Shown here piece by piece: positions 14,608-55,645 of a stretch of 64,000 bases of DNA. The stretch covers positions 1 to 64,000 of the forward strand of contig NYXK01000232.1 of assembly GCA_002685535.1 (NCBI GenBank), read 5' to 3'. The stretch comes from Deltaproteobacteria bacterium. GTDB lineage: Bacteria > SAR324 > NAC60-12. Positions within the stretch are counted from its first letter, which is position 1. Every line of letters begins with the position of its first letter. The notes under the pieces were generated by a model. That model was not told the origin of the DNA. It saw only the letters and a list, made by a program, of their open reading frames with translations, and ran no database searches. The position numbers and the translations under genes are program-made.

Positions 14608-15211
14608 AGCTGGATTGACGGCTGGATGATAAACTCTCGCACACAATTTGGAAGCAGGGGAGTGCATAACAGATGATGGTGATTGTCCTTGGTCAGAGCA
14701 TGACATGGGATGGCGTACGGGCTCAACACATTTTTGCAGCGAAATTAATACACTTGGTGGGAAGGCGTTTTCGAGCTTTTGAGCGTTTCATTGCATTGCA
14801 TGGCATGGTATGGTATGCATGGTATAGCAGGCGAAATGGTGTTGACCTGAATTGGTCTGGTTCGAAGTCTTTGTAGAATACATCGAGGCGCGAGAATGGA
14901 CAACTCATTGATGCCACTAAGGACATGATAGAGGATCGTAAAGTAATTCGCCGGAAGGCATAACCAACAGCTACTCCACAGACGCGGCAGGCAAACCTGA
15001 CTCCAAAACAAATGGAACTTTCAACCGAAAAGGAGATTTCTACTGAGAAGCCAATGATTTGAAGTGCCATCTCTTCAACTGGACAGGAGCAGTCAGCAAG
15101 ATTCAATTGAGCGCGCAGACGAGATCCGTATGCCATCCTTTTCCCCCAAAGGCATCACACCAGCTAAGCTAACCAATTCCTCCAGGTCGGCATACTGACG
15201 CATACAAGGCC
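14608..15211. other. Spacer between the tandem coiled-coil genes
   Basis: No gene is seen. A short GCATG/GTATG-rich repetitive tract lies at about 14790-14826. The last 100 bases are the likely promoter of the next gene. Confidence 0.55.
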
Positions 15212-17143
15212 ATGACAGCCAATGCCGTCCCTCTCATCCCTCCTCCGTCCGAACAACCCTTCATGCAGACCCCGTCGCGAAAGAGAACTCGCCCTTTCGA
15301 CAGAGCAGCTAGCGATGATAGCAGCAGTTTCGACCGTATCAGTCCTCATCGCTATGCAAACTCTACACCGAGACGCAGCGCGAAGAGAATACGATCTGGC
15401 ACACCATTGAGCGGATCTCGAAGGACAAGTGCACATGGGAGACTATTTGCTTCACCTAGAAAAGCTGGGAGTTTGTCTGGTTTCGAGAACTTGAACTTGA
15501 GCCAGGGTAATGATGAATGCTCTGGGACATTTGGACTTGAGGATATTCGATTCAAGGAGGAAAAGAGGAGAGATACTCCGGACGCGGGTGTCTATGAAAT
15601 TGTCCGAGATCTCTGCGATAAATACCCAGACAGCAGCTTCGAAACAGACAATGGGAACATTAAATGTCTCGACTGCGACAAGTCACCGAAGGCCAACTTT
15701 CATGGACTTGTTACCCACGAGAGGAGCAAAGCACATCAGAATGATATCAAGGAGAAGCTCGCCAATCCTGTTTCTAAGCAGGCCGCTTTCAAAGATACAA
15801 TGATGTTCCCTCCTCCAAAGGTCATGGATTTGGGGATCGATTTTAACATTTCGCAGCAGCCGCTGGCAGTGTATGCACAGAGAGCGACTCAGAATCTGGC
15901 GTCTACGAGAGAACAGTATTTAAAAGCTCTGGAAAATGAAAATCATATTGGCTCGATACGGATGCCGTTTTTGGAGTCACGGCAGGAGAAGGCTGAGAAG
16001 CTGAATACCGCGAAAATGGAGAAGCTGAAGGAGGATCTTGATGAAGTGGGAGAGAAATGCAAGAATTTATCGCACGAATTGACGGAGAAGCTGGACTGGT
16101 CGGAAGAGAAGACGAGGATACAGCTGCGGGAGGTCAAGGAGCGTCTTGATGTAAGCGAGGGGAAGAACAAATAGCAGTTGAAGAGCATGGGGTCTCGTAT
16201 CAAAGAGACTTCTGAGGACTGCGATGTCAAGCTCGATAAGATGTTGACCTCTCTGGCTAAATTCGACCACCGTAATATGGACCGTATCGATGATCTGAAA
16301 ACAGACCTGCGGAAGTTGGATGAGGGAATGGAAGAGCAATTATCTGCTCTGAAGTCCAAGATCATGGAACTAGAGGACTTGAACACCGAAACCCAGCGCG
16401 GAGACCTCGAAGCCAGCATCAGAGAACTCGAGTCTTCCGAGCTGGAGTCCCGTACCCTCCGCGCAAAAATGGAATCTCGACTCACCTCCATCGAAAACAG
16501 CATTAGGGAATCAGACAAACACAGGTTCTCTCTCGTAGCATAAATCCTCGACTTACAAACCTCACAGGAAGAATCGAAAGCCGCTACTTCAGGGTTGAAA
16601 TCTCGTCTTGAGGAACTAGAAAAGGCGAATTCGCTGAAGGAAGAGGAGCTGCATGATCTGGAAGCTAATTTGCAGATGTTGAGTGAAGATCTGCAGAGGC
16701 AGAGGGATTGGAATTTGCAGTATCAGATGACGGTTAAGGATCAAATCGAAGCGCTTTTTCAATTTACGGAGAAGAATGCAAGGAATGCGGAGAACGCGAC
16801 GGCTAAGCGCGAAGAGGAAGCGAGAGAGAGGGAACGAGCACTTGAGGAGAGGTTGACGGGGAGGAGGATGGAGCGAGTCGAGAAGGAGATTAGAGAAGAG
16901 AGGGAGTTGGATAGGAGGAAGATGGTGAGGTTGAAGGAGAAGAATAGGGAGTTGCAGGATGAGTTGGATGATCTTAAGGGTGATTTGCTGCCGTTGATTA
17001 TGGCTGATTTGGAAGGAGGGCTGGAAAGTGTTGTGGGGTTGAAAGAAAAGGTTGAGGTGCTGGAGGGGTTGGCGGTGCAGATGAGTGTGCCTCTAGATTC
17101 GAGGACAAGAGCCGTCAGTGAGAGGAGGGAGATTTCTGTTTGA
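15212..17143 (+). pseudogene. Finger plus coiled-coil paralogue interrupted by TAG and a frame mismatch
   Basis: An ATG at 15212 opens a frame of 320 codons ending in TAG at 16172-16174. The same frame then continues as heptad-rich coiled coil to 16524, and coiled coil resumes from 16568 to 17143. The N-terminal part has nuclear-type basic motifs (SRKRTRPFD, RRSAKRIRSG) and a finger, Cys152-X2-Cys155-X13-His169-X5-His175, in the context IKCLDCD. This resembles the finger of the upstream gene, including a preceding YP-x-x-x-F-E stretch. The likely second intron (GTTCTC...CTCACAG, 16525-16567) leaves the frame off by one base; a 33-nt alternative from 16535 would fit frame but is too short. Either the gene is recently broken, or TAG readthrough and unusual splicing operate. 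The homology is clear; functional status is open. Confidence 0.6.
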
Positions 17144-21819: not shown

Positions 21820-22656
21820 GCTCCCGCGAGGCTTATTTGCCCATAACTATATTATGCCCTTTCCCCCCGTTTTGAGCCTTTCGACGTTTTCCTTTTCTTC
21901 ACGTGTTCTAGCTGGCCTTCATGGGGCAAAGCTATTCCTGAAATCACGTGTGATTATATAAGTTCGCGGTCTCTGGGCGAGTCTGTCCAGCTTCAAGATA
22001 TATTACCTATATAGGTTACACAATACACCCTCTCAAATTCGTAGCTGTCTTACTTTGCGGTTCCTGCTGGCGCAGCGTAAGCACGCAGATTGTAGGTAGG
22101 TAGCTGTTTGTACTCCTCTCCATCACGTGCAGCTCCCCGCTTTCCCTTTACATTCCATTGGTAGTGTTCATTTAGGTTTCCCCTTGTATTGAGATTCTAC
22201 AGTAGTCGCCTTTTAACTTTCTAAACAAAAGGTAATGCCGCCGCTTCTTCCGGTGTTGCGGGGTGTCCAGAGATAAAGGGGGCAGCTACGCTACCTATAT
22301 AGGGGGCGCGAGCTTTCGTCTCCACGGAGCTGGTGATTATGCGTGTGAATGAGAGAGAGCATGTGAGTGAGTGAGTGAAAGAGCCCTTTTCTCCCTCCAA
22401 TCCCTTATCATTGTCCTTGTCCTACTCTTTTTCCTGCACCGCGTCCGCAACAACTACATAGCTTCATCCCCTACACCCTGTGCCCTGGCTGCTAGCTGCA
22501 TTCATATAATTGCTCTAAGGAGCGGCTCTGCTATGCTCTACTTTACTCTGCACTACTCTGCTCCGCCCTGTCAACCATATTAGCCTCACTTTCTCCGGGC
22601 CGTTAGCAGTGTCTTGCCTCTCTCCAGGCCTGACTTGATCTTAGGTACGATTCGAG
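21820..22656. other. Upstream region of the Zn2Cys6 gene
   Basis: This 837-bp interval has no gene. It holds three TCACGTG E-boxes, a 12-bp palindrome ACCTATATAGGT at 22005-22016 with a near copy at about 22291, and pyrimidine-rich leader sequence just before the ATG. Confidence 0.6.
21899..22129. promoter_or_regulatory. Cluster of three TCACGTG E-box motifs
   Basis: TCACGTG occurs at 21899-21905, 21944-21950 and 22123-22129. CACGTG is the core bound by fungal bHLH factors (Cbf1, Pho4 or SREBP type). Function is inferred from the motif and its position about 530-760 bp upstream of the regulator gene. Confidence 0.45.
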
Positions 22657-24856
22657 ATGTCCGAAATACCCGCCGCCAGGTCAGCCCGAGCGTGCCAGGA
22701 GTGCAATCGCAAGAAGTCCAGATGTGACAAGCAGCGTCCAGTTTGTGGACTCTGCCAACGGACCGGCGCAGTCTGCGATTTCCCCAGCAAACGCAGGATC
22801 CCATTGTTTCGCAAGGCCGCCCCAGAGAGAACTAAGTCGCAAAAGATCAATGATAATCTGGGCAGGCTGTTAAACCTGCTTGACAGTATTTCCGAACCCG
22901 CCGAAAACCTGGTGATACCACGGGGAACAAGTTCAGTCATCGAAGCTCCTGAGTCAACGGACCAGATTGGACAACAGGATCGCCAGCTTCTTCGTGAGGA
23001 TACCACAGTAGAATCAGAGCGCGACCCGGTGGATATGCCCCTGGAAACTTCGCCCGCTCCGCCAAGCAACAATCCTAGCCTGGTGATGCAGAAATCAATA
23101 TACCCCACAGAGCGCCGGGATGCAGCCAAGGATGCACTGCAGTTCGATGAAATATCAGGAGAACTCGCGCTACATCTCATTGATCTTTATTTTGTTCATG
23201 TCCAACCTTGGTTACCACTCCTTCATAAACCTTCCTTTCTCTCCCATTACACGACGCAGCAAAGAGACGGACGATATGCACTGGACAATCTCTTGATTGA
23301 AGAACGACTCATTCTCTTGTGCGTGTTTGCTCTTGCAGCTCGGTACTCCAACTCCACAGCTCTGGTCAATATTGAACCTCTTTCTCGAGGGGAACGCTTC
23401 GGGAAAATGGCTAAGGCGATGTACGACCAAGCAAGAAATCTTGAGTCTCCATCTCTACCGTATTTGCAAGGATGCATCCTGCTTTCGGTCTACTGCTACA
23501 CGTCAGGCCTATCCACACAGGGCTGGATAGCTGTTGGCGTTTGTGTGCGTCTTGCCTATGAATTGGAACTTTCTGAGATGGACTACGATGACGAAGATGG
23601 CGGGTCGGAACACATCGACTGCCAGAATGGCTATCTTTCTGCGTCGTGGAAAAAGGAGGAAAAGCGCAGGGCCTGGTGGCTCGTCTGGGAGCTGGATACC
23701 TTTGGGTCCATCCTGAGCAGAAGACCTTTTGCTATTGATCGACGCCGCATGAAGGTGATGCTCCCCATCTCGGACGATGACTGGGTTTCGGGAAGGAATA
23801 CCCCATCTTCAATATTGAAGTCTAATGTTGGCGAGGCTTGGAAGTCTATTGATGGAACCGTCAACCAAGATGCTCGCGCATGGTTTCTCGTTGCAAACCA
23901 TATGGTCGGGTGCATTCACGAGCTCATTCAACGTCGAGAGGGAATCTCTGAGACAGATATGCTGCTCTTGAATAACGATTTGAGCTGCTTCAAATTATCG
24001 TTACCGTCCAGTTTGGATTTGAACTCAGTCCAGCCTGTACTGGGAGCAGAACCGTCGGCTCGAGATAACTGGGTTTTGGGAATGCATTTAATGCTGTCCA
24101 CTGCCTTTTTCATGCTTTCAAATGCTGTTGTTAAAAAGGAGCATTCCCAAAGCCCAGTCAGCACGAGGCTACACACTAGTGACGCATCCGACACACGTAT
24201 TCGGGATATCTCATCCATTGCATCTCGGTGGTCTGCGAGTCAGATCCAGATTGCACACCCGTTTCTTGTATGCATGTTACTGCCCGTATATTTCAGGAGC
24301 AGTTGCACTGCAAGCCCCGCCGTCTTGTCCTCACATCATGATCTGATAGGTCTCGTATTACGTACCTTTGCACAATATTGGGGACTAGGTTGTTCCATGT
24401 TGAGTAAGGCTACTGTATTCAAAGTTTTGGATAGTAAATACTGACGATCCTACAGAGCTTGCCGAAATAATCGAATCGAGGAAATCCTTGGGGGAGAAGG
24501 ACGTCGACCTAGCAGCTCGATATGCGACATTCTTCCCGCCATCAATCAAGGTCGCCACATCGTCGCCCAGAGAGGCCGAAATAAGAGCAAGCTCCACCAC
24601 AAGTATCAATCTACCCCCTCAACAACACCGTGAAGATCCTTCCGACGCAAACATAGCGACAAATCGAACTTACTCCTCAGCTCATGGAGACCTCCCCGGA
24701 ATATCCCTCAGCACAATGGGTATCGACTACGCTGACATTGGCTTTATGGGTTTCGAGGACACTGCAGGTCATGGTAGCGAGAGCCTCGAATTTTCGGATC
24801 TACATGATTCGAACTATTACTTCTCAAACATTGATCTGGGACAAAGGGGAGAATGA
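22657..24856 (+). CDS. Zn2Cys6 transcription factor with fungal_trans domain
   Basis: Two exons (22657-24403, 24456-24856) join in frame to 715 aa. The binuclear cluster has Cys13, Cys16, Cys23, Cys30, Cys33 and Cys40 (CQECNRKKSRCDKQRPVCGL). The fungal-specific regulatory domain follows from about residue 165 (LYFVHVQPWLPLLHKPSF, LQGCILLSVYCYTSGLS, RRAWWLVWELDTFGSILSRR). The C-terminal 110 residues are acidic and Ser-rich, fitting an activation region. It lies at the edge of a dioxygenase/monooxygenase block on the same strand, so it is the likely pathway-specific regulator; that link is inference from position. Its promoter carries three E-boxes. Confidence 0.93.
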
Positions 24857-53252: not shown

Positions 53253-55645
53253 ATGTCATCTTCAGGGCAACATCCCCGAAAAATGGCACCCAGTCGGGAA
53301 GATCTCATCACAGACCCAGACCATGTATCAAACAGCGCACTATTCAACCTCTCGCAGCGCGAACTCTCAAAGCGTCTCCCAGCATCCACATCAACACGTG
53401 CAATGTTCTCAATCTACTTACGCTGGCTGGAGGTTCACCGCCAGAAACCGTCGAGTAGGACGGAGCATTGGAGTAATACGGTTATGCATTGGTGCCAGAG
53501 TTTGGCTTCGAAGGGGTTTGGTGTTAGGCAGGTTGTGGAGGAGGTGAGGAGGTGGAAGAGAGATAGGGAGAGGTGGAAGACGGAGGTGGAGATGGAGAGG
53601 GAGATGAAGAGGGGGAGGTTGATGCCGTCGGAAAGTGAGGTCAGGAAGGCGTTTGAGGACGATCCGAAGGCGCTAGGGGAGAGGAAATCGTACAGAAACA
53701 GGGAGAAGGAGAGGGATAGGATTGGGGACTTGTATAGGCCTGAGTCGAGCTCGAGACGGGATGCTGATCCGAGGGAAAGACATAGGAGAGAGGACAGGGA
53801 GAGGGATTCGTGGAGCGAGATGTGGGAGGATTCGCGGCAAGAGAGTCCTAGAAGCAGGAAGTTTGACGAGCAGGCGAAGTTTGATGGTCCACCACCGCGA
53901 AACTATGTGTGTAATCGGTGTGAATTACCGAGTATGTTTTCAAGACCCCCAAGATTTGCTTCGAAATTTAATTTCAATCAAATGCCATAACTCGAAGTCA
54001 CAGACTGATTTAATTTACAGGGCATTACCTCCAAGTCTGTCCAACCAATCTAGATCTAAGCTACGATAAGCCTCCAGACGAGAACTATACGTGCGAGATT
54101 TGCCGCAAGAGAGGAGATCATTTCAAGTCGCTTTGCCCTCAAAACACCGATCCTTACTCAATTATCCAAAAGCGCAAGGCAAGAGGTATCACAACACCCC
54201 CAAAAGGAGGCACTTCGCGACAAGACGAGTGGGAGAGGGAAGGCAAAGCCCAACGAGAAAGAGAGCGCGAGAGGCACGAAAGGCGAATAGAAGGCCGATC
54301 AACAGCATACTCGTCAAGTAGCTCCGCCATGAATACTCCAACCTCAACAAAGAAGAAAGAGTTGATCGATAAGGTGCAAGAACTCGAAGACGAGAAGAGA
54401 AGGCTCTTCCATGAACAGTCAGACGATATTGGCGATATGATTCGAGAGAGCACCGCGCAACGCAGCAGTGATCGCAAGAGAGGTCTTCCAAATTACGATG
54501 CTACCTCATTTGACAGCCCGACTTCGAGAACAATTCATGCACAAAAGAAGGCACGACGAGAGAGCCAGGAATCGGGTCCAGAGATTCAGAACCGGGAGAG
54601 ATACGACCGCATCAGAAGTCCACACCGGCACTACACCCATAGCGACGAGGACATGGAGCAAGGCAATGAGACAGGGATGAATGGATACGCGGATCACATT
54701 TCTCACCAACCACGGAAGTCTACACCATCCATGGGCTTCGCACTTCGACCGATCGGATTATCGCCTGGGTCAATGATATCTGACAACGAAAGCATTGACG
54801 ACATGGACATCGACGAACCGTTTTCCAGACCCCGCAAGGAATATTCACCTTTCGTCCAGAACCTTATGCGAAAACACCCAGAGATGAACGAGGTGGTGAA
54901 TGTTATCAAGAGCCGCAAAACTGCTCAAGAGATGTGGAGAGAGGCCGATAAAGTGCGCAGACAGCAGTTTAAGACGGGGTGAGTGCGTCCCGACACCACG
55001 GGAGACTGCCTGCTCACTATTGCTAGGTCACCATCAGAACTGGAGTTTGGTCGACTTACACCAGTAGCCTACGACGAAGAAATGACGATGCAATATGATG
55101 GCGCTTGTGACTACGACCAGACCAAGACCAACGAAATGACGTCTGACGAAGAAGAAAGATTTCGCAGCCATCTCTCCAGCTTCACACGCACAAACAATCC
55201 TCTTCAAACTTCCAGCCCACTCCAGTCCCAAGGAGACGCAATGGCCTCCAATAACACAGACACAAACATGAACTCAGATTCCGAAAACACGACGCCCGCC
55301 CCTTCCACTACACGAACGGTCCACTTCAATTCACGGCAAGAAACCGATCGCAGAGATGTAGCCAGCGCTTTCCAAGGCTTCGCCGCCCAGCAGCGACGCA
55401 ATGCCGAATCAGTCCGAATGAGCAGAGCACGAGGAGAGCGCGACCCTGCGGAAGTCCAAGCTTTGAAGAGCTTCTCGACGAATTTCAAGCTTTCTACGCC
55501 TGTTCCTCAAGATCTTGTTAAGATTCTTGCGAAGGATGCAGAGAAGCAGAAGGAGATCAAGGAGAAGTCAGAGCGCGATGTGAAGGAGCTGAGAGGAGAG
55601 AGTGACAATGCGAATGGGGGATCTGGAGATGCGGCAATAGCATAA
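53253..55645 (+). CDS. Nuclear-type protein with two CCHC zinc knuckles
   Basis: Three exons (53253-53931, 54021-54978, 55027-55645) join in frame to 751 aa. Two knuckles sit at about residues 220-260: CNRCELPRHYLQVC (C-X2-C-X4-H-X4-C, formed across the first intron) and CEICRKRGDHFKSLC. The N-terminal 90 residues form a helical domain (LFNLSQRELSKRL, RWLEVHRQKPSSRTEHWSN), followed by a long Arg/Glu-rich region; the C-terminal half is low complexity with a helix ending VQNLMRKHPEMNEVVNVI. Knuckles of this kind bind RNA or single-stranded nucleic acid and occur in mRNA-processing proteins such as Mpe1, but no DWNN domain is seen here. Function is inferred only at class level. A second Met (MAPSRED) lies 10 residues downstream. 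Confidence 0.85.

Follow-up and report, generated by a model that had tools for sequence, protein, structure and literature searches.

Stop codons inside an otherwise continuous coding frame have been described in several settings, of which three are close to the locus analysed here. In readthrough of the tobacco mosaic virus (TMV) type, the leaky stop is followed by the hexamer CARYYA. According to the available portions of PMC4132726, all six bases of the motif appear to matter in a mammalian OPRL1 reporter, where the motif works far less efficiently with UAA than with UAG or UGA; a CARNBA motif, which likewise ends in A, is mentioned as well.

In sexual tissue of Fusarium graminearum and its relatives, editing converts in-frame UAG codons to UGG; annotation conceals these stops by false introns (parts of PMC4817773 and PMC7306014). 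Among the natural stops of F. graminearum, 175 UAA codons are edited to UGA and five to UAG, and all remain stops; the location of the edited adenine in a hairpin loop is a preference (62.4% of sites) and no strict rule (parts of PMC4817773). A third route is intronisation, the excision of a former coding stretch in frame. The scenario has been proposed in PMC2586383; in Cryptococcus it was found to be rare, a survey of 28,256 introns having yielded five cases (PMC2740785; both sources in part).

Two in-frame stops in a fungal coiled-coil gene

The stretch of DNA analysed, hereafter the window, comprises 64,000 of the 64,512 bases of its contig, which belongs to an assembly of 7.28 Mb and 244 contigs. 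The DNA of the window is fungal, in an assembly classed as a prokaryote genome: at 22651–24441 it encodes a Zn2Cys6 cluster together with a Fungal_trans domain, and it contains short GT...CTRAY...AG introns. Across the assembly there are 38 Zn_clus and 14 Fungal_trans matches, and Fungal_trans is found in none of 51 other genomes of the phylum. Since these fungal-domain matches go together with a size of 7.28 Mb versus 1.3–3.3 Mb (rounded) in 16 relatives of the genus, a large part of the assembly is probably fungal. The listed contamination of 4.35% does not reveal this fraction, which the present analysis brings to light. For comparisons within this DNA we used 41 sources (836,703 bases), namely the window and 40 stretches from 24 contigs bearing Zn_clus matches.

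The gene of interest and its parts are as follows:

15212–17143, plus strand: interrupted gene; a single frame of 643 codons runs from a presumed start ATG to TGA, with two internal in-frame stops
15665–15736, plus strand: C-x2-C-x13-H-x5-H motif, read from the sequence
16172–16174, plus strand: first in-frame stop, TAG, codon 321; the next six bases are CAGTTG
16175–16540, plus strand: segment between the stops, 122 sense codons; +0.126 bits per codon
16541–16543, plus strand: second in-frame stop, TAA, codon 444; the next bases are ATCCTC
16544–17140, plus strand: segment after the second stop, 199 sense codons; +0.274 bits per codon
12421–14607, plus strand: upstream neighbour, open from stop to stop over 728 codons; it has a C-x2-C-x18-H-x5-H motif and a coiled coil

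The open reading frames (ORFs) 15173–16174 and 16175–16543 share the same frame, and the terminal TGA (17141–17143) directly abuts a TAA, giving a tandem TGA-TAA. Between 15212 and 17140 the coding frame holds two stops, compared with 29 and 43 in frames +1 and +2, and it is free of frameshifts over all 643 codons. Coding scores come from a dicodon model whose training set comprised 148 ORFs from this assembly and excluded the interrupted gene; the median of the training ORFs is 0.18 bits per codon. The segment before the TAG (15212–16171) scores +0.117, the highest of the three segment scores is found beyond both stops, and the five other frames of each segment are all negative. Two stops, coding scores in all segments and a continuous frame together make this one interrupted coding frame: TAG and TAA interrupt what is, or lately was, a single coding frame. 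The preliminary description had placed the TAG inside one frame with coding sequence on both sides and CAGTTG directly behind it, and both points are borne out; it had missed the second stop and the splice donor GTAAGC at 16151, and had not considered A-to-I editing.

In the scanned part 16001–17000, the 20-codon interval at 16511, which spans the TAA, scores −0.8 and that at 16031 scores −0.7. Such low values are not unusual, since 79 of 1535 intervals in ORFs of at least 500 amino acids score −0.8 or less, in a control that treats the first codon and the stops slightly differently. An antisense frame of 259 codons (15943–16722, minus strand) spans both stops and is probably a by-product of the codon composition of the coiled coil. 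Antisense coding was rejected: although this minus-strand ORF is open, each of the three segments has negative scores in its minus frames.

The encoded protein has a zinc-finger-like motif near its N-terminus, followed by a long coiled coil. We take the motif to resemble a zinc finger of the U1/matrin type. Pfam searches up to E 0.01 returned no match for the segments before the TAG and after the TAA, the zinc-finger-like motif included, and the segment between the stops gave a weak match, below the cutoff, to a spectrin-like repeat (E 0.009). PDB sequence matches of the first segment to seven cathepsin L2/V entries (E 0.044–0.082) were disregarded. The hydrophobic heptad phase, taken over 35 residues on each side, is similar across the TAA (2.97 versus 2.57 of 3.5) and about half a turn apart on either side of the TAG (2.00 versus 0.22 of 3.5), both as uncontrolled values; sliding windows around the TAG show a gradual drift of the phase.

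A two-sequence BLASTP comparison of the upstream neighbour with the interrupted gene gives E 0.004 for the best segment, which lies in the coils, and E 0.008 for the finger region. Adjacent and on the same strand, the two genes are possibly old tandem paralogues, judging from their sequences. When the whole assembly was searched, the finger region of the interrupted gene (to E 10) and the neighbour (to E 1) each matched nothing but itself, and queries of 319 and of 87 residues of the protein revealed no second copy of the gene there. No relatives were found in the genome contigs of a non-fungal collection, with the interrupted gene and the downstream hemerythrin gene as queries, nor in viral contigs or 40 other genomes of the host order.

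Splice candidates around the stops

Splice-site matrices were derived from 106 training introns of this fungus, 40–80 nt in length. Their branch sites are CTGAC (36), CTAAC (24), CTAAT (19), CTGAT (17) and others (10), and the branch starts 12–27 nt from the acceptor end in all 106, though the selection admitted 11. Their scores have a median of 22.05 and a 5th percentile of 18.0; these percentiles are the training set's own, the set having been self-selected by motif and coding flanks in a way that favours consensus introns up to 160 nt. Among 193 looser candidates, drawn from introns of no more than 160 nt, the commonest length is 44–55 nt (67 of 193), and a branch spacing of 11 nt occurs once.

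The best in-frame GT...AG candidate of up to 200 nt that removes the TAG alone scores 9.2, and the best that removes the TAA alone, 141 nt long, scores 12.1. Both values are far under 18.0, and thus no short intron explains either stop. A 42-nt intron at 16133–16174 (plus strand) had been suggested previously as a way to remove the TAG, with the caveat of a poor donor. Its ends and the weakness of its donor (−7.2) stand; with this donor, and with TTGAT as its best branch-like site (score 0.7, 29 nt from the acceptor), we reject it as an intron. Around the TAA, two further candidates were rejected, one of 43 nt (16525–16567) that is not a multiple of three and has a donor score of −6.5, and one of 33 nt (16535–16567) that scores 6.2.

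A good in-frame donor, GTAAGC, lies at 16151, 21 nt 5' of the TAG, and can be paired with either of two acceptors:

16151–16675, plus strand: candidate 525-nt in-frame intron, GTAAGC...CTAAT, 11 nt...TTGCAG; removes both stops; score 21.3
16151–16567, plus strand: candidate 417-nt in-frame intron with the same donor, CTTAC, 16 nt...TCACAG; removes both stops; score 15.5

Both candidates are GT...AG stretches with a length divisible by three, and their excision creates no new stop. As a control, two points separated by 369 nt were placed at random in 82 real ORFs; in 9 of 2460 placements they were spanned by a pair whose score matched or bettered that of the 525-nt pair, and the same held for 25 of 2000 shuffles made from the codons of this gene. 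Smaller runs gave 1/656 and 11/1000, and 3/664 and 1/600; the ORF set of the 3/664 run held one extra ORF, and the counts of 9/2460 and 25/2000, from the clean set, are the main ones. The 525-nt candidate amounts to 175 codons, exactly 25 heptads; were it excised, this divisibility by seven would make it easier for the shortened coil to keep its register. The phases that flank it, 1.78 (residues 273–307) and 2.89 (residues 483–517) of 3.5, agree only roughly.

Elsewhere in the window, at 54980, an in-frame TGA separates the ORFs 54014–54982 and 54983–55645. An in-frame splice candidate of 189 nt at this position scores 22.2 and is perhaps a normal longer intron.

Decay weighed against other explanations

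We consider it probable, at about 0.62, that this is a fungal coiled-coil gene truncated by two separate nonsense changes, with a loss of the full-length protein that was probably recent. Translation from the ATG at 15212 would then stop at the TAG at 16172 and yield a protein of at most 320 residues, made up of the N-terminus with its zinc-finger-like motif and the first part of the coil; this short product may or may not still have a function. The 321 sense codons past the TAG would be remnants of a frame that was under coding constraint until recently, because no frameshift has accumulated. Presumably nothing at the level of decoding, editing or splicing repairs the frame, and the loss of the full-length protein appears to be recent. 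The premature stop lies in frame with coding-looking sequence on both sides, as is expected of a pseudogene. A broken gene of this kind is an ordinary finding, and interrupted frames are not exceptional in this fungal DNA: the 41 sources contain 37 in-frame stops with coding-like flanks (raw counts: TGA 20, TAG 10, TAA 7), and 29 of the 37, the TAG at 16172 among them, have no candidate intron of up to 200 nt scoring at least 17, although some of these 29 will be due to chance. The scan undercounts, for it does not list the TAA at 16541, whose 60 preceding codons score too low (3.6). What argues against plain decay is that the frame is without frameshifts and has its top coding score past both stops, which suggests either a very recent loss or some remedy, and that the 525-nt in-frame intron candidate scores near the training median.

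Repeat-induced point mutation was considered and rejected. The gene has a TpA/ApT of 0.47 and a (CpA+TpG)/(ApC+GpT) of 1.46, compared with source means of 0.63 and 1.31, and both indices lie away from the direction given by this process; its GC content (0.489–0.495) is not low either. Other stretches contain more in-frame stops that have coding-like flanks and lack a good short intron, among them L014:11733 (+), L038:14019 (−) and L032:9133 (+); these are candidates for other interrupted genes, or chance.

The strongest rival to decay, albeit an unlikely one, is intronisation, by which a former coding stretch would be excised in frame from 16151 to 16675 or 16567, as in exitrons, leaving a shorter coiled coil. 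A single donor clears both stops in frame with either acceptor, and the 525-nt pair is close in score to the training introns of this fungus (21.3 versus a median of 22.05). Nevertheless, 11 nt separate its branch site from the acceptor end, a shorter spacing than any of the 106 training introns shows. When a spacing of at least 12 nt is required, only the 417-nt version remains; its 15.5 is under the 5th percentile of 18.0 and is equalled or exceeded in 219 of the 2460 placements in ORFs and in 312 of the 2000 shuffles. Both versions are also far longer than the commonest 44–55 nt, and the stretch to be excised itself scores as coding. That intronisation is still in progress, with the stops tolerated through a latent splice pair 16151/16675 that removes 175 codons, seems more doubtful again. 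About as improbable is that one or both stops stem from sequence error or strain mixture in the metagenome consensus and that the living gene is intact. The assembly of this contig does mix fungal and prokaryote DNA, and the stops come without a frameshift, but two independent substitution errors that both yield stops in one gene would be an unlikely coincidence.

Explanations that act on the TAG alone face a common difficulty, since with the TAA in place neither readthrough nor editing of the TAG can restore the protein: reading through the TAG would lengthen the product by only 123 residues, with the final 199 still missing. A lone in-frame stop should therefore not be interpreted by itself, as the second stop 122 codons on discounts either event as sufficient. 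The preliminary description had offered decay or programmed readthrough as alternatives and had called CAGTTG close to CARYYA. Decay is the better supported of the two, and the likeness of the hexamer holds at five of six positions. Yet the final A is replaced by G, so the complete hexamer is not present, and CAGTTG is one of 11 codon pairs, out of 642 in the gene, that reach at least five matches (one pair reaches all six). The predicted fold of bases 16172–16260 has a slight edge over shuffled sequences, 15 of 200 of which do equally well or better; the difference is not significant. The frame behind the supposed leaky stop does not stay open to a natural end but meets the TAA after 122 codons, in a context (ATCCTC) that matches CARYYA at two of six positions. 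We regard programmed readthrough of the TAG, aided by this context and a downstream stem-loop, as hardly credible. No Rfam match was found in the window at gathering thresholds; ARAGORN with bacterial settings found no tRNA in the window and one unclassified tRNA in 40 loci, which says little on suppressors. A stage-specific change of UAG to UGG by A-to-I editing, of the kind described for the PUK1-like genes of Fusarium and Neurospora, is scarcely more probable. UAG and UAA are preferred triplets for editing, and edited genes resemble pseudogenes that annotation bridges with false introns (parts of PMC4817773 and PMC11156358). Here, however, the premature stops are not all of the UAG-to-UGG kind, the second being TAA. 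Editing of UAA yields UGA or, rarely, UAG, both of them stops, so that the TAA at 16541 would persist, and the available portions of PMC4817773 and PMC11156358 do not describe editing of both adenines of one UAA. The TAA is predicted to lie in a small hairpin loop, the favoured structure, but shuffled sequences fold at least as well (z 0.64). For the TAG with 30 nt on each side, the minimum-energy structure places the TAG adenine in an interior loop instead of a hairpin loop, and this fold is weaker than shuffles (z 1.13). TAG is also not the commonest interrupting stop in this DNA (10 of 37, as a raw count), and editing has been reported in Sordariomycetes and one Pezizomycete (parts of PMC11156358), classes to which this fungus may or may not belong.

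Comparison with known systems

With TMV-type readthrough (PMC4132726, in part) the locus shares a UAG followed by CAG and two pyrimidines, but it differs in the last base of the hexamer, G for A, and in the second stop downstream. The PUK1-like genes of Fusarium and Neurospora (PMC4817773 and PMC11156358, in part) likewise have an in-frame UAG that false introns could bridge; the differences are a second stop, UAA, which described editing does not rescue, and a TAG outside any predicted hairpin loop. Intronised exons (PMC2586383, in part) and exitrons are also former coding stretches divisible by three with splice-like bounds and premature stops. The evidence here is from DNA, and either the branch site is too close or the splice score too low. 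If the splice pair were used, the locus would be an example of an intron that arises from coding sequence after stop mutations. Nonsense-interrupted pseudogenes, the products of unitary gene decay, provide the remaining comparison. Although the present gene differs from them in that it has no frameshift yet and no intact relative was found in the searches described above, it has in common with them a continuous coding frame cut by stops.
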